Assembly (NCBI GenBank): GCA_029775915.1
Contig: JARVKA010000002.1
Location: forward strand, 62,001-126,000
Direction of reading: 5' to 3'
DNA: 64,000 nucleotides
Source of the DNA: Nitrososphaeria archaeon
GTDB taxonomy: Archaea; Thermoproteota; Nitrososphaeria; Nitrososphaerales; JANXEG01
Below, piece by piece: positions 11,183 to 55,105 of the stretch. Position numbers and translations under genes: made by a program. Position 1 is the first letter of the stretch; each line of letters begins with the position of its first letter. The notes beneath the pieces are model-generated. The model was given only the letters and a program-made list of their open reading frames with translations. It did no database searches and was not told where the DNA came from.

Positions 11183-11553
11183 ATTATTATCATCCTCCAA
11201 ATAACAAAAGGTTGTTGCGTCTTAAAAACATAAATATGTGATTTAGTTAAAAATTAGCTCAAATCATATTAAATAACGCACCTTTAAGGCGTTTTGATAA
11301 TCTTACAGTTGGTTAAAGTTTTGAAAAATTACTTCAAAAATATTTGACTCATGCAGTGGTATTGAGAATTAAAATTATTTTAAAATTCGAAGCGTAATAT
11401 AAATTTCTTTTTCCATTTCATTTAAATAACAAATAAGATCTAGTAAATAATTTTAAAATTCAACATGGAATATGGCTTTGTTAATATAATCTTCCCGTAG
11501 ATGTTAGGGAAAAGATAATATGTAAATAAGGTGAGCTTATTATTAGTGGGAAA

Positions 11554-11835
11554 ATGTTTAAGCATTGTCCAGGAATTAATAGCCTTGTTAGGCCTACAAT
11601 AATTATAAGGAATTGCCCATTTTGTGGCGAAGAAGTTGAATTTTTTGAATATGAAACTCAACAAGAATGCAGTAAATGTGGTAAGATAGTGTATAGAGAA
11701 GCTTCTGAATCTTGTATATTATGGTGCTCCTATAGTGAAAAATGCGTTGATGATTTAGAAAGTAAAAGAGTTATCACAAAAGAAAGAGCTGAAGAATTAA
11801 GAAAAATTGCACAACAACGTATGCATAAAACTTAA
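11554..11835 (+). CDS. Small zinc-ribbon protein
   Basis: 93 residues with two CxxC pairs: CPFCGEEVEFF at about residues 21-31 and CSKCGKIVYRE at about 39-49. A third cysteine-rich stretch, SCILWCSYSEKCVDDL, follows. The pattern resembles a widespread family of short zinc-ribbon proteins in anaerobic archaea and bacteria, often labelled phosphohydrolase without support; no catalytic motif is visible. A GTGGG precedes the ATG by about 4 nt. It is next to an HTH_10 regulator read in the opposite direction and a group of redox-type genes, so a role in metal or redox response is plausible but inferred. Confidence 0.7.
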   Translation: MFKHCPGINSLVRPTIIIRNCPFCGEEVEFFEYETQQECSKCGKIVYREASESCILWCSYSEKCVDDLESKRVITKERAEELRKIAQQRMHKT

Positions 11836-11877: not shown

Positions 11878-12507
11878 TTATTGAGTTTTAAAATATTGTT
11901 GCAATAATCTTTGCAATCCTCTTCTAATGATTTCTGATAATGTTGATGGGCGAATCCCTAACTTACGTGAAAGTTCAATAGTATTAATCCTTTTAGGATA
12001 TTCAAAGAAGCCTGTTTTTAATGCGAGCCACAATATCATTTCTTGCTTCTCAGTCAAAATCTTCCTCCTTATCTCATACTTCTCTACTTTTAATATTTTT
12101 AATTTAAAACTACTCTCTAAAGCTGATATTATATCTTTAAAAGCATCAAAATTTGGTGATATGAAACTGTATATAAGTGATGAATCTTTAGTACTCCCTC
12201 CTGAGATTAAGAATGCACCATGGGAGATTATTGTATTACAAAGATCACAACCTTCACTCTCGAACCATATGAGTTTTCTATTTCCAATTTTACTATATTT
12301 TGCTCTTATAGGAAACTTTTTTGGCAGTTTATCGATTTGTTCAAAAGGCAATTCTATCAAATGTCGAATCGAGCCACCACTAAACCCTCTAATATCATCA
12401 ATCTTAAATTGCTCAATCCCTAAGCTTGTGAGAATCTCCATCACTTTACATCGTTTATTATCTACCTCAATAACTATGTGATAAGGCTCATACCATTGTG
12501 TGATCAT
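11878..12507 (-). CDS. HTH_10-family transcriptional regulator with CxxC sensor-like motif
   Basis: 209 residues. The C-terminal about 55 residues match the bacterio-opsin-activator type helix-turn-helix (HTH_10): LTEKQEMILWLALKTGFFEY, then TIELSRKLGIRPSTLSEIIR. The N-terminal two thirds is an uncharacterised domain with CDLC at about residues 87-90 and two other cysteines, which could bind metal or sense redox; that is inference. Its ATG (12505-12507) is only 4 nt from a 26-bp element that recurs upstream of the ferredoxin-system gene at 13133. The element also lies before the gene at 12568, which runs away from this one. This placement suggests autoregulation and control of both neighbours. 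Confidence 0.85.
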   Translation of the reverse strand: MITQWYEPYHIVIEVDNKRCKVMEILTSLGIEQFKIDDIRGFSGGSIRHLIELPFEQIDKLPKKFPIRAKYSKIGNRKLIWFESEGCDLCNTIISHGAFLISGGSTKDSSLIYSFISPNFDAFKDIISALESSFKLKILKVEKYEIRRKILTEKQEMILWLALKTGFFEYPKRINTIELSRKLGIRPSTLSEIIRRGLQRLLQQYFKTQ

Positions 12508-12511
12508 AACC

Positions 12512-12537
12512 CCTAATATTTTCGTGATATTTTTAAA
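12512..12537 (+). promoter_or_regulatory. Shared 26-bp control element, copy 1
   Basis: Identical over 26 bp to 13072-13097. It contains two near-identical half units, TAATATTTT and TGATATTTT, offset by 11 bp, about one helical turn, and ends in TTTTTAAA, which can serve as a TATA box for the gene starting near 12568. It ends 30 bp before that start and begins 4 bp from the start of the HTH_10 regulator read in the opposite direction. A protein bound here would cover the regulator's own transcription start. The identity is seen directly; the regulatory role is inferred. Confidence 0.75.
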
Positions 12538-12567
12538 TAAGGGTTTTGAAGTAAAAAATGAGAGGAA

Positions 12568-12942
12568 TTGTGTGATTTATGTGGATGTATAAAATATATT
12601 AACGAAGGTAAGGAGGCTATCTTAAAGAGGGCACAAGAGATTATCACAAAACTTAATCTTTCGCGTAATAATGTGGAGCTTTTTGAAGATTGTGAAAGAA
12701 TAGCACATGAGGTTGTTGCATTTTCATATCCATCGATTAAAGATAATGAAATACTCGCCATATCTAAATGGATACGTAATTTACATGAACCGATCTTTAA
12801 GAAAAGATTACAAAATTATCTTGATGCTGCTAAAGATGTATTTAGTAAATTACCGATTAACATAAACACAAAAGAAGCGATAACGATGTATCATCAATTG
12901 GAGCAACTTGTAAAAGAGATTGATGATGATCTAAATCATTAA
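12568..12942 (+). CDS. Uncharacterised protein with N-terminal CxxCGC motif
   Basis: 124 residues beginning (M)CDLCGCIKYI if the TTG at 12568 is the start. The N-terminal CxxCGC resembles metal-binding tails such as that of the hydrogenase maturation factor HypB, but nothing else matches HypB. The rest is charged and predicted alpha-helical, with histidines scattered (IAHEVV, LHEPIF, MYHQLE, C-terminal NH). I could not fit it to hemerythrin or ferritin signatures. A GAGG sits only 2 nt before the TTG and the TATA-like part of the 26-bp element is about 35 nt upstream, so the mRNA leader must be short. Function unknown; co-regulation with the genes at 13133-13859 is likely. Confidence 0.65.
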   Translation: MCDLCGCIKYINEGKEAILKRAQEIITKLNLSRNNVELFEDCERIAHEVVAFSYPSIKDNEILAISKWIRNLHEPIFKKRLQNYLDAAKDVFSKLPININTKEAITMYHQLEQLVKEIDDDLNH

Positions 12943-13071
12943 AGAATACACATTTAAGAGAGACTTTAATAGCAGTTAAGAATACTCACAATAATAATTT
13001 GATTAAAAGAATGAAGCTTAAAGAGCGTTATGGTTTGGTCGATTAAGAACTATTAAAATATCTTTAACGGT

Positions 13072-13097
13072 CCTAATATTTTCGTGATATTTTTAAA
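13072..13097 (+). promoter_or_regulatory. Shared 26-bp control element, copy 2
   Basis: Exact second copy of the element at 12512-12537, same strand, ending 35 bp before the TTG start at 13133. It has the same 11-bp-offset half units and the same terminal TTTTTAAA. Flanking sequences diverge immediately on the 5' side and are only loosely similar on the 3' side, so this is a conserved site rather than a large recent duplication. It probably drives the two-gene ferredoxin unit 13133-13859. Confidence 0.75.
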
Positions 13098-13132: not shown

Positions 13133-13567
13133 TTGATTACTCAATGGCCAGTTAAAATACTATTGGTGTACCCGAAGGCGCCATTTCTCCAACGTGAAAA
13201 AATAACCATTGCGGCGGATTGTTCAATACTCATAAATGAGAGTTTTCATGATAAATTTAAGAAAGGTGAGACTTTGATTATAGGATGCCCATTACTAGAG
13301 AATCCCGATAGGATTATGAATAAAATCACTCAAATAATAAAGGATACTACAGCTAGTAAGATTGATGTTTATACTATGGAAGTACCTTGTTGCCATGCTA
13401 TACATATGATGGTTAAAAAAGCTGTAAAGGAGCTTAGAAAGGAGGATGTAGATATCAAGCATTATATCGTTAGAGTAGCCTCTGGAAATGTTGAACTCTA
13501 CAAACATGGAGTTATTGACGAATCTATGATTGAGGCTGAAAGGAAGGCGCATGAACACACCCTTTAA
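13133..13567 (+). CDS. C-terminal half of HCP-associated ferredoxin-type protein, as a separate gene
   Basis: 144 residues. The sequence ITQWPVKILLVYPKAPFL, TIAADCSI, LIIGCPLLEN and METH-like MEVPCCHAIH matches the domain that normally follows a 2x[4Fe-4S] module in Fe-S proteins found next to the hybrid cluster protein in anaerobes. The conserved AADC, IGCP and VPCC cysteines are all present, so it may hold a metal cluster. The TTG start at 13133 is supported by GGGTGA 6 nt upstream. The stop overlaps the next gene, which encodes the missing ferredoxin half. Exact reaction unknown; electron transfer or nitrosative/oxygen stress defence is inferred from relatives. Confidence 0.75.
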   Translation: MITQWPVKILLVYPKAPFLQREKITIAADCSILINESFHDKFKKGETLIIGCPLLENPDRIMNKITQIIKDTTASKIDVYTMEVPCCHAIHMMVKKAVKELRKEDVDIKHYIVRVASGNVELYKHGVIDESMIEAERKAHEHTL

Positions 13568-13859
13568 TGTAAAGAAGAAACGGCTTATAGTAATTATATG
13601 CAAAAATAAGTGTACTGGTTGTGGGAATTGTGTGAAAGCATGTTTAACTGGTGCTCTTCAAATCATCAATGGTAAATCAAAGTTAGTTAATGAAAGATTA
13701 TGTGATGGCTTCGGCTCATGTATAGCCGTTTGCCCAAATAATGCTATTAAGCTTGAGTATAAATTTGCTGAAGATTTTGATTGGTCGATATTAAACTCGA
13801 TAAGTTTTGATAGTCTTATGCAAAAGTTAAGAATGGGTAGCGAAAGATTAAGTACTTAA
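13551..13859 (+). CDS. 2x[4Fe-4S] ferredoxin
   Basis: About 102 residues from ATG 13551 (AGGAAGG about 5 nt upstream); an in-frame start at 13530 is possible. The two cluster motifs are CTGCGNCVKAC and CDGFGSCIAVCP, the second with the characteristic CDGxGxCxxxCP form seen in hybrid-cluster-protein-associated ferredoxins. The 17-nt overlap with the preceding gene implies coupled translation. In most relatives this module is N-terminal to the preceding protein's domain in one polypeptide; here the halves are separate and in swapped order. A cytoplasmic electron carrier for its partner is likely. Confidence 0.85.
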   Translation: MNTPFNVKKKRLIVIICKNKCTGCGNCVKACLTGALQIINGKSKLVNERLCDGFGSCIAVCPNNAIKLEYKFAEDFDWSILNSISFDSLMQKLRMGSERLST

Positions 13860-16760: not shown

Positions 16761-17174
16761 ATGAGCTTATCAAGACTTTCGGTTGTAGATGTGGATTTAT
16801 GTGTAGGTTGTCAAAGTTGCATGTTTGCATGCACAAGGAGGTTTGGAGAAGGAGGTTTAAGTAAATCTGCTATTCATGTAAAGTCTGCTGGTGGTTTTGA
16901 AAGAGGGTTTGTAGTTATAGTGTGTAGAGCGTGTGAAGATCCACCTTGTGCTAGAGTTTGCCCAACCGATGCTCTTAGATTAAGAGTGGGTGGTGGAGTA
17001 GTATTAAGAAAGGAGAAATGCATTGGATGTGGGAATTGTGTAAATGCTTGCGTAGTTGGTGCAATATTTTGGGATGATGAATCTAATAAGCCAGTTATTT
17101 GCATACATTGTGGTTATTGCGCTTCATTCTGCCCTTATGGTGTTATAAAATTAGAGCGACAAGAGAGGTGGTAA
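16761..17174 (+). CDS. 4Fe-4S ferredoxin subunit, DMSO-reductase/AOR-associated type
   Basis: 137 residues packed with cysteine motifs: CVGCQSCMFAC (about 14-24), CRACEDPPCARVCP (about 54-67), CIGCGNCVNAC (about 83-93) and CIHCGYCASFCP (about 112-123). That is enough for about four [4Fe-4S] clusters, as in the electron-transfer subunits of complex molybdenum and tungsten enzymes. It ends 3 nt before the predicted start of the aldehyde:ferredoxin oxidoreductase gene and presumably is its dedicated electron acceptor. GAGGTG near its end serves the next gene. Confidence 0.92.
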   Translation: MSLSRLSVVDVDLCVGCQSCMFACTRRFGEGGLSKSAIHVKSAGGFERGFVVIVCRACEDPPCARVCPTDALRLRVGGGVVLRKEKCIGCGNCVNACVVGAIFWDDESNKPVICIHCGYCASFCPYGVIKLERQERW

Positions 17175-17177
17175 GGC

Positions 17178-18944
17178 ATAAGTTTAGAGCCTATACCGAG
17201 CAAAATTTTATACATAGATTTATCATCCAAAAGCTTTTGGGTAAGAGATAGGCATGAACTTTTTCAAAAGTATTTAGGAGGGAGCGGTGTAGCGATAAAA
17301 ATCTTACATGAAGAAATTAAACCAAATATAAATCCTCTTAGTGCTGATAATGTGATAGTGTTTACTGTAGGTCCATTAACTGGAATGTATCCTTTAGCCT
17401 CTAAGACTGTAGTTATGTTCAAATCACCTTTAACAGGCAATCTTGGCGAGAGCCATGCGGGTGGTAGAAGCGCTATAGCCATACGTATGGCTGGATATGG
17501 TGGAATAGTGATTAAAGGTGCAAGTGATACTCCAGTTTATATCGCTGTGCATGGTGATAAAGTCGCTTTTCGTGATGCATCAACATTATGGGGAATGAGA
17601 AGTAGTTATACAGTTGGGAGAGTATTGAGAGAAGTTGAAACTGGTGCGGGTATAAGGAGCATTATGAGAATAGGAAGGGCTGGTGAGAAACTTGTCTCTT
17701 ATGCTTGCGTGGTTACAGAGACTTATCGCCACTTTGGTAGATTAGGCTTGGGAGCTGTATGGGGTAGTAAAAAACTTAAAGCTTTAGTAATATCAGGTAG
17801 GCGCTCAATCAAGCCTAGGGATACTAAGCTTTATCGTGAAGTTTATGATTCCATCTTTACCACTATTACGAAATCCCCCATTATGAAAAAATATCATGAT
17901 ATTGGCACAGCAATGAATGTAACTCCATTAAATAAATTAAAAGCTTTACCAACGAAGAATTTGAAAGAAGCATCATTTGATAATGCGGATAAAATTTCAG
18001 GAGAGGCTATCGCTGAGAAGTTTTTAGGTAGAAGGGTTGCTTGTTCTCACTGTCCAGTGAGTTGTATTCATCTCGCTATACTTAAAGAGCCTTATGCTAC
18101 AGAACCTTACTTTTATAAAACTATAATGATTAGTTATGATTACGAGTTAATTTATGCATTAGGCTCAATGCTTCAAATTTCATCGCCTGAAGGATTACTC
18201 AAATTAATTGATAAAGTTGAGAAAGAGGGTTTAGATGCGATGAGTTGTGGTGTAGCATTAGCATGGGCTACAGAAATGCTTGAAAAAGGTTTAATCGATA
18301 AGGAGATTTTAAATGGTATTGTACTTAAATGGGGTGATTTTGATAATTATATTAGAGCTGTAGATCAACTTGTAGAGCAATCTACAGAGTTTTATAAAGC
18401 TTTAGCAAAAGGTGTTGAATACGCATCAAAGATTTACGGTGGTGAAGAATTCGCTTTAAGCTTTGGAGGTAATGAAATGCCAGGTTATCATACAGGTCCA
18501 GCTGCACATATTGGCTATCTTACGGGTGCGAGGCATAGCCATTTGAATGGAGCTGGCTATAGTATTGATGAAAAATTTTTAAAATCTAACGTAAAGCCCA
18601 ATGTAGAGCAAATAGTTGACGATTTGATTAAAGAGGAGAGTTGGAGGCAAATCCTTAGTAGCCTCGTAGTATGTTACTTTGGTAGAGGTATTTACAAGCC
18701 CGATGTAGTAGTGAAAGTGTTGAAAACAGTTGATTATAATCTTAATGAAGAAGATTTAAATAAACTCGGTATGGAAATTTTACAAGAAAAATATCGATTT
18801 AAGCTTAGAGAAGGCTTTGATATTAAAAAATTAAGATTGCCGAAAAGGGTGAGTGAGACACTTACACCATTGGGCATAGTTACACCAGAATTTGTAATGG
18901 AGAGTGTGAATTTATACATAAAGAAGCTACACTTAATTGAATAA
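17178..18944 (+). CDS. aor: Aldehyde:ferredoxin oxidoreductase family tungstoenzyme (ATA start)
   Basis: Oxidises aldehydes to acids with reduction of ferredoxin, using tungsten bound to pterin. The family N-terminus (SKILYIDLSSKSFWV, then KYLGGSGVAIKIL) is in frame upstream of the first GTG at 17352. The frame opens only after a TAA at 17172-17174 and contains no ATG, GTG or TTG before that homology. GAGGTG at 17165-17170 lies 7 nt before an ATA at 17178, so ATA is the best start and gives 588 residues, close to the usual length of about 600. CSHCPVSC matches the Fe-S binding CxxCxxxC and VVCYFGRG supplies the distal cysteine. It directly follows its ferredoxin partner. The exact aldehyde substrate is unknown. 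Confidence 0.9.
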   Translation: MSLEPIPSKILYIDLSSKSFWVRDRHELFQKYLGGSGVAIKILHEEIKPNINPLSADNVIVFTVGPLTGMYPLASKTVVMFKSPLTGNLGESHAGGRSAIAIRMAGYGGIVIKGASDTPVYIAVHGDKVAFRDASTLWGMRSSYTVGRVLREVETGAGIRSIMRIGRAGEKLVSYACVVTETYRHFGRLGLGAVWGSKKLKALVISGRRSIKPRDTKLYREVYDSIFTTITKSPIMKKYHDIGTAMNVTPLNKLKALPTKNLKEASFDNADKISGEAIAEKFLGRRVACSHCPVSCIHLAILKEPYATEPYFYKTIMISYDYELIYALGSMLQISSPEGLLKLIDKVEKEGLDAMSCGVALAWATEMLEKGLIDKEILNGIVLKWGDFDNYIRAVDQLVEQSTEFYKALAKGVEYASKIYGGEEFALSFGGNEMPGYHTGPAAHIGYLTGARHSHLNGAGYSIDEKFLKSNVKPNVEQIVDDLIKEESWRQILSSLVVCYFGRGIYKPDVVVKVLKTVDYNLNEEDLNKLGMEILQEKYRFKLREGFDIKKLRLPKRVSETLTPLGIVTPEFVMESVNLYIKKLHLIE

Positions 18945-53614: not shown

Positions 53615-55105
53615 TTAAGATTTAGCACGTCCAAAAATTTCAGTTAATTCTTTAAATCTTTGAAGTTTATTAGATATTAATTGTTCAATAGTTAATCTCC
53701 ACTCCCAATTGTTTGATAATGATGATGGTTTATTCATTCTCGCTTCAGAACCTAAAGAGAGTATATCTTGCATTGGTGTAATACTCAAATTCGCTACAGA
53801 GATCATTGAAAGTCTAATAAATTCCCAACTAACCGTTCTTTCTGATAATTTTTTACCCACATATTTAAAGAGCCTATCCTTCTCCTCTTGAGTCGCCTCA
53901 TTTAAAAACCATCCCTTTACTGTATTGGTATCATGAGTGCTTGTAAAAACTACGGAATTTTTTGAATGATTATGAGGTAAATGTGAGCTATTTGAATTAC
54001 TAAATGCGAATAAAAGAACTTTCATATTAGGGATTCCAAGCTTACTAATAGCCTCTTCCACATCGAGTGTTATAAAACCTAAATCTTCAGCGATAAATGG
54101 TAAGTTTGGGAATTGCTTAATAAGCTTGCTAAAGAATTCTTCCGATGGCGTCTTAATCCATTTACCTTTCTCCGCTGTATCACAATATGCTGGAACTTCC
54201 CAATAAGCAAGAAAGCCTCTAAAATGATCGAGGCGTAATAAATCAAAAAGTTTTAAATTATGTTTTATACGCTCTATCCACCACTCAAAATTTCTTCTCT
54301 CCAATTCATCCCAATTATATACGGGAGTTCCCCACAATTGGCCTTTATTACTAAAATAATCTGGCGGTACACCACTTAAAAATAAAGGCATTTTATTCTT
54401 ATCCAATTTGAATATTTCAGGATTTACCCATACATCTGCACTATCATGACTAACATAAAAAGGAATATCTCCTATAATCTTCAATCCTTTTTCATTACAA
54501 TATTTTTTCAAAGAGAACCATTGTTTAAAGAATAAAAATTGAGTAAATTTCTCAAAATCTATAAAATCTTTAAGAGCTTTTCTTTCTTCATTCAATGCGC
54601 TTTTATCTCTATCACGTAAATCGCTCGGCCATAAATACCAAGGTTTATTAAACTTTCTCTTTAAAGCTTTGTAAAGAGCATAATCGTCTAACCATTTTGA
54701 ATTTTCAATGGAGAATTTTTCAAATCCATTATAATCTTTCCTATCTTTAAAGAATTTATACGCTTTCATTAAAATCATCCCTTTAATTTTTGATACTGCT
54801 TTATAATCCACATATTTAGATGGTAAGTTTATCGATTTTTTATCAAATGAATTGGGAAGGAGTTTCTCATTTATTAATAAATCTGGACTTATAAGTAATG
54901 GATTGCCAGCAAAACCTGAATTTGAAAAGTATGGTGAGTTCCCATGCTCTATGCTAGTAGGATTTAATGGTAAAATTTGCCAATAACTTTGCTTAATCTC
55001 TAATAATAAATTTGAAAATTTATATGCCCATTTTCCTAAATCGCCTATACCAAAATTCGATGGTAAAGAAGTTATGTGAAGAAGAATACCACTAGCTCTT
55101 CTCAC
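53615..55105 (-). CDS. malQ: 4-alpha-glucanotransferase (GH77, MalQ)
   Basis: Transfers alpha-1,4-glucan segments in glycogen or maltodextrin metabolism; cytoplasmic. 496 residues. RRASGILLHITSLPSNFGIG at the start, SYWQILPLNPTSIEHGNSPY, GDIPFYVSHDSADVWVNPEI, then LFDLLRLDHFRGFLAYWEVP with the nucleophile Asp, PFIAEDLGFITLDVEEAISK with the acid/base Glu, and VFTSTHDTNTVKGWFLNE. It follows the GH57 gene by 42 nt on the same strand, forming a glycan-processing pair. Confidence 0.96.
   Translation of the reverse strand: MRRASGILLHITSLPSNFGIGDLGKWAYKFSNLLLEIKQSYWQILPLNPTSIEHGNSPYFSNSGFAGNPLLISPDLLINEKLLPNSFDKKSINLPSKYVDYKAVSKIKGMILMKAYKFFKDRKDYNGFEKFSIENSKWLDDYALYKALKRKFNKPWYLWPSDLRDRDKSALNEERKALKDFIDFEKFTQFLFFKQWFSLKKYCNEKGLKIIGDIPFYVSHDSADVWVNPEIFKLDKNKMPLFLSGVPPDYFSNKGQLWGTPVYNWDELERRNFEWWIERIKHNLKLFDLLRLDHFRGFLAYWEVPAYCDTAEKGKWIKTPSEEFFSKLIKQFPNLPFIAEDLGFITLDVEEAISKLGIPNMKVLLFAFSNSNSSHLPHNHSKNSVVFTSTHDTNTVKGWFLNEATQEEKDRLFKYVGKKLSERTVSWEFIRLSMISVANLSITPMQDILSLGSEARMNKPSSLSNNWEWRLTIEQLISNKLQRFKELTEIFGRAKS

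Follow-up and report, generated by a model that had tools for sequence, protein, structure and literature searches.

Anaerobic bacteria place hcp and frdX under the control of HcpR (PMC1274295, PMC545781), a CRP/FNR-family regulator acting through palindromic operators of the TTGAC/GTAAC type. In Clostridioides difficile, hcp and frdX are induced by NO about 200-fold and are required for NO resistance, with NO induction of the bacterial genes running through HcpR (PMC12915319). NsrR (Rrf2 family) and NorR (sigma54-dependent) likewise control hcp and other small NO-defence genes (PMC1274295). The literature that we searched names no archaeal regulator of hcp; the mapped ones (HcpR, NsrR and NorR) are bacterial. 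On the archaeal side, the haloarchaeal proteins NarO and DmsR (denitrification and DMSO respiration) belong to the HTH_10 family, lack PAS and GAF domains, and activate their targets (PMC11218638). Here we describe a repeated element of a Nitrososphaeria archaeon. It lies beside an archaeal regulator gene, contains a palindromic site and very probably acts as a genuine genetic switch. We put the probability at roughly 70% that it is the operator and core promoter of a self-contained regulon, an archaeal counterpart of HcpR working by the mechanism proposed below.

The window, that is, the whole stretch analysed here, comprises 64,000 nucleotides of contig JARVKA010000002.1 (GCA_029775915.1, forward strand, 62,001–126,000). 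It contains two identical 26-mers, CCTAATATTTTCGTGATATTTTTAAA, at 12512–12537 and 13072–13097 (both plus strand). Direct reading bears out the identity claimed in an earlier note on this DNA, the difference in the flanks and the distances to three start codons: copy 1 lies 30 bp upstream of a TTG start at 12568, copy 2 lies 35 bp upstream of a TTG start at 13133, and 4 bp separate copy 1 from the ATG of an HTH_10 gene on the minus strand (12507). No other exact repeat in the window reaches 18 bp. In an AT-rich genome (34% GC) whose TATA boxes look alike, two unrelated promoters might share such a string by chance, or might carry a dispersed repeat. However, the longest direct repeat stayed below 22 bp in all of 200 order-2 Markov simulations, and a search of the whole 1.47-Mb genome at up to three mismatches returned these two places only (none for the reversed-pattern control); we regard coincidence or dispersal as practically negligible. 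The absence of scattered copies counts for the regulon reading that the earlier note had put forward.

Two half sites 11 bp apart and a TATA-like end had been described for each copy. This arrangement stands, refined to an 18-bp inverted repeat that begins 2 bp before the 26-mer. The repeat, TCCCTAA-N4-TTMGGGA, is common to the hcp and frdX promoters in genomes of regulator orthologues. Each 26-mer holds most of one degenerate copy, followed directly by the TATA-like TTTTTAAA; the half-site centres are 11 bp apart at both 12510–12527 and 13070–13087. Half sites read as ATATTTT direct repeats were rejected because the arms conserved across genomes are CCC/GGG.

We scored the window with a position weight matrix (PWM) trained on 21 sites, all of them from other genomes; the seed consensus that guided their selection had first been derived by visual inspection of promoters. 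The best place in the window (score 25.2) is O1, TCCCGTAGATGTTAGGGA (11493–11510, plus strand; TCCCTAACATCTACGGGA on the minus strand), 43 bp before a Zn-ribbon gene. O1 is a third and better operator copy, absent from the earlier note, and with one mismatch to the consensus pattern it is the best match in its genome. O2, CCCCTAATATTTTCGTGA (12510–12527, plus strand), lies for the most part within copy 1, is common to the divergent regulator and CxxCGC genes, and ranks second (20.4; two mismatches); fewer than one site scoring at least 20.4 is expected by chance in the whole genome. The TATA-like TTTTTAAATA (12530–12539, plus strand) is the putative TATA box of the CxxCGC gene, and its reverse strand, at a distance of about 27 bp from the ATG of the regulator, may serve that gene. 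O3, GTCCTAATATTTTCGTGA (13070–13087, plus strand), lies for the most part within copy 2, which also holds the TATA box, and precedes an FrdX C-domain gene. Its left half is weaker and on its own it is a poor match (8.4); we count it as an operator because the 26-mer is identical to copy 1 and lies where orthologous frdX genes have a site. All four transcription units of the 2.4-kb cluster (regulator, CxxCGC gene, split FrdX-like pair and Zn-ribbon gene) carry an operator.

The 26-mers agree even in a non-consensus T (in CGTGA), closer than independently evolving sites require, as would be seen if one were a mere recent copy of a promoter segment that binds no regulator. Copying could account for this identity but not for the conservation of the operator: other families conserve the palindrome next to their orthologous regulators, and the third operator, at the Zn-ribbon gene, is not identical to the other two. 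We consider simple copying very improbable.

The Zn-ribbon-like protein (11554–11835, plus strand; 93 residues, CxxC...CxxC...WCxYxxxC) is a proposed regulon member, and its homologues lie directly upstream of an FrdX C-domain gene in locus L044 and adjoin the regulator, with an operator of their own, in L098. The CxxCGC protein (12568–12942, plus strand; 124 residues, beginning MCDLCGC) has no significant match in Pfam, NCBIfam or the PDB. One of 60 relatives has a homologue (60%; G012/L038), whose promoter bears only a faint operator resemblance (PWM 3.0) and was left out of the counts. Behind O3 lie a homologue of the FrdX C-terminal domain (13133–13567, plus strand; 144 residues, invariant CP..E and MEVPCCHAIH) and a two-[4Fe-4S] ferredoxin half (13551–13859, plus strand; 102 residues; Pfam Fer4_7, 46 bits), their genes overlapping by 17 bp (13551–13567). 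Both align to a single fused ferredoxin protein in L102, one to each part: the C-domain homologue to residues 127–239 (33% identity, E = 2e-25) and the ferredoxin half to residues 8–74 (48% identity), in swapped order. We call the split pair FrdX-like from gene linkage, domain make-up and this fused archaeal homologue. The structure model of the C-domain protein (pLDDT 64.5) was too poor for use, and PDB sequence searches gave no match. The grouping of regulator, CxxCGC protein and split ferredoxin system proposed earlier holds at the DNA level; the gene at 11554 needs to be added to it.

The regulator (11878–12507, minus strand; 209 residues) carries an HTH_10 domain at residues 151–202 (PF04967; 56.3 bits against a cut-off of 23.1), found in 35 of 35 aligned orthologues. 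A domain search detected no CRP/FNR-type domains (cNMP-binding-like plus HTH_Crp) in it, in contrast to HcpR. In the N-terminal sensor part, each of C20, H49, C87 and C90 is shared by no fewer than 36 of the 37 orthologues, a pattern suggestive of a metal or Fe-S site. The AlphaFold model (mean pLDDT 85.7) predicts that the HTH part is preceded by two alpha/beta units in succession, and places C20 and C87 at helix starts; neither a fold search (TM-score on query <0.3) nor a PDB sequence search gave a convincing solved relative.

NarO and DmsR share the family and the lack of PAS/GAF domains. Weak DmsR_N (PF24277) similarity occurs in 10 of 35 clade members (best E = 0.015) but lies below the Pfam cut-off, as it does in the window regulator (E = 0.13). 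The operators resemble each other in the centre and differ in the arms. The NarO-type motif CGAACATGTTCG (PMC10062603) ranks third of the 4,096 perfect 12-bp palindromes against the inner 12 bp of our operator, and the CGAA-N4-TTCG-like semi-palindrome near DmsR/NarO target promoters is matched by its inner part; the CC/GG arms are an addition. HTH_10 proteins may thus share one recognition code, which the CC/GG arms extend in the present case. The targets differ too, being hcp, frdX and Zn-ribbon genes rather than nar, nir or dms.

We gathered regulator orthologues from 398 genomes of the phylum, relatives and a public genome collection, and read their 5-kb flanks. The regulators form one clade (99/100 support) that occurs across Thermoproteota and stands apart from the remaining HTH_10 proteins in the relatives; hcp linkage is seen at three places in its tree. 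Eighteen of the 36 members outside the window that score above 200 bits have hcp no more than 4.1 kb away, and in 11 of those it lies immediately downstream of the regulator (at most 155 bp). In L086, L098 and L099 the regulator is divergent from the same C-domain and ferredoxin pair as in the window, and in L102 the fused ferredoxin gene is divergent from a regulator–hcp pair. The regulator is present in 35 of the 398 genomes, hcp in 37 and both in 20 (Fisher P = 1e-14, uncorrected for relatedness). Hemerythrin-like genes adjoin the regulator in genome G004 and, at L037:1170–1910 and L113:3971–4753, orthologous regulators whose own promoters are devoid of the canonical site.

The operator follows the regulator. 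The examined hcp promoters in genomes with an intact regulator bear it, even where hcp and the regulator lie apart in the genome (L158, L159 and L161); in L168, where the ORF start reaches too far upstream and covers the operator, the site was identified manually. It is likewise present at frdX in L086, L098 and L099. Seven hcp promoters of regulator-less genomes, from families f40, f49 and f32, are devoid of the operator (L145–L147, L152, L164, L172 and L173). In L170 the regulator match contains a stop codon, and the hcp promoter has no operator. Family f18 provides two exceptions (L162 and L169), where the hcp site occurs without a detected regulator, perhaps owing to missing contigs; a further member, L171, has neither. 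Among 330 control upstream regions, three score as high, and two of these are hcp sites already counted, read from the opposite side. Genome-wide counts of degenerate palindromes do not separate regulator-bearing from regulator-less genomes, so the signal resides in promoter position. Conservation beside orthologous regulators, on which the earlier note had staked its reading, is thus seen: in other families of the phylum the palindrome adjoins the regulator, frdX or hcp.

Several variations on this pattern were seen. The regulators of L036, L037 and the f22 group have no such operator at their own promoters. Five f22 regulators (L107, L108, L109, L112 and L115) share a conserved block of another kind upstream, GTATTTAAAGATAAACTTAAT...GCCAGATAGGTTTTAATATTAAT, which may be a further operator. 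Three f18 genomes have the operator in front of a small cupin protein as well (L210:1538, L211:1663 and L204:12322), and it also precedes flavodoxin-like genes at L204:6608 and L207:1689, which points to a wider regulon in that family. The Sulfolobaceae-like family f35 has, in two genera, a strong palindrome (L218:1617–1634, CCCCTAATATATTCGGGA; L226:1661–1678, TCCCGAATAGTTTAGGGG) between a divergent HTH_10 gene (192–195 residues; Pfam-confirmed in L218) and a zinc-type ferredoxin gene. There the operator seems to be used by a second subfamily of HTH_10 proteins.

At the level of DNA, the regulon is well supported by a conserved operator, co-inheritance with the regulator, position and gene linkage; binding, signal, cofactor, activation and autorepression are what we infer. 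At target genes the operator ends 29–54 bp before the start (70 bp in one case, L102), and in five loci, that of the window among them, just 1–5 bp separate it from the start codon of the regulator's own gene. The hcp promoters have a conserved CTATnTG 6 bp after the operator (GGGA-N6-CTATnTG), which leaves the operator outside the expected BRE. In frdX-type promoters, including those of the window, the TATA-like stretch begins 1–3 bp after the operator, which then overlaps the expected BRE.

We propose that the adjacent HTH_10 regulator binds TCCCTAA-N4-TTMGGGA, probably as a dimer, and that it would sense NO or a related redox signal via a metal or Fe-S site of C20, H49, C87 and C90. The signalled form would bind beside the BRE/TATA of its targets and recruit basal factors, activating the genes for the Zn-ribbon and CxxCGC proteins and for the FrdX-like ferredoxin in its two pieces. 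As O2 lies between the TATA box and the start codon of the regulator gene, binding there would limit synthesis of the regulator itself. The simplest reading, in line with NarO and DmsR, is that the regulator activates its targets and restrains its own gene.

The geometry could also suit a repressor whose apo or reduced form covers the BRE and blocks TFB, to be released by NO, oxygen or a metal. Exclusion of TFB is possible since the operator abuts the BRE: it overlaps the expected element in frdX-type promoters, with TATA-like sequence right behind, and sits almost on the regulator's own start. In hcp promoters, however, the operator stands a few base pairs farther upstream, the usual place of archaeal activators, and the characterized HTH_10 proteins of similar size, NarO and DmsR, activate (PMC11218638). 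Repression is accordingly a reading that we judge unlikely, and we retain activation for the targets.

The regulon in this genome appears compact. Pattern-based scans of the whole genome with up to two mismatches to the consensus recover O1 and O2 only. Three mismatches add O3 and mostly intragenic matches, fewer in all than the reversed-pattern control; those checked, O3 apart, fall within coding sequence or score low. The regulon here therefore probably consists of the Zn-ribbon gene, the regulator, the CxxCGC gene and the split ferredoxin pair, and nothing more. A site at 54309 was rejected as a member, lying within a 496-residue ORF. Downstream of the cluster (16761–18944), a ferredoxin-like gene precedes a large ORF with resemblance to aldehyde ferredoxin oxidoreductase; no operator was found there.

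We found no hcp (TIGR01703) in this genome or its 60 relatives, and hcp was rejected as a target here on that account. The NO link therefore rests on other families. The earlier guess of a redox or metal regulon keeps its redox half and, through the linkage to hcp and frdX, narrows to a probable nitrosative or redox stress. A broader signal (oxygen, zinc or iron rather than NO), with the genes handling ferredoxin-linked electron flow or Fe-S repair, would fit the lack of hcp here, the Cys-rich nature of every target, the cupin and flavodoxin-like genes behind the extra f18 sites, and the hemerythrin-like neighbour in G004. It fits less well with hcp being the commonest neighbour and site-bearing gene across the clade, when bacterial regulators control hcp upon NO. 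We hold a general redox or metal signal to be possible, though on balance not probable, and favour nitrosative stress.

Set beside HcpR, the archaeal system has a similar layout: a regulator beside hcp and/or frdX, a palindromic operator before both and a small core regulon (PMC1274295, PMC545781, PMC12915319). Of the two core targets of such a regulon, frdX is represented here by the split FrdX-like pair behind O3; hcp is missing from this genome and present at orthologous loci elsewhere. The differences are an HTH_10 regulator instead of a CRP/FNR protein, TCCCTAA-N4-TTMGGGA instead of TTGAC/GTAAC-type palindromes, and a FrdX divided into two genes in swapped order. NsrR and NorR share the control of hcp, but their families and operators are unrelated to those described here. 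With its operator conserved over much of the phylum at genes by which bacteria counter NO, the archaeal circuit seems equivalent to one known from bacterial nitrosative stress, though its regulator is of an unrelated type.

A bolder extension, which we think rather improbable, is that the Cys3His HTH_10 protein is an NO-responsive master switch in much of Thermoproteota, with the CxxCGC protein and the two-piece FrdX replacing Hcp in hcp-less genomes. If true, these proteins would constitute a previously undescribed system for handling NO or nitrosative damage. The Zn-ribbon and CxxCGC proteins are suggested partners for the still unexplained FrdX, and the similarity of the operators ties the system to NarO-type control in haloarchaea. 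For Bathyarchaeia-like and other uncultured lineages, the locus yields a regulator, a searchable operator and a set of target genes, so that NO defence in archaea can be tested by means of short DNA probes.
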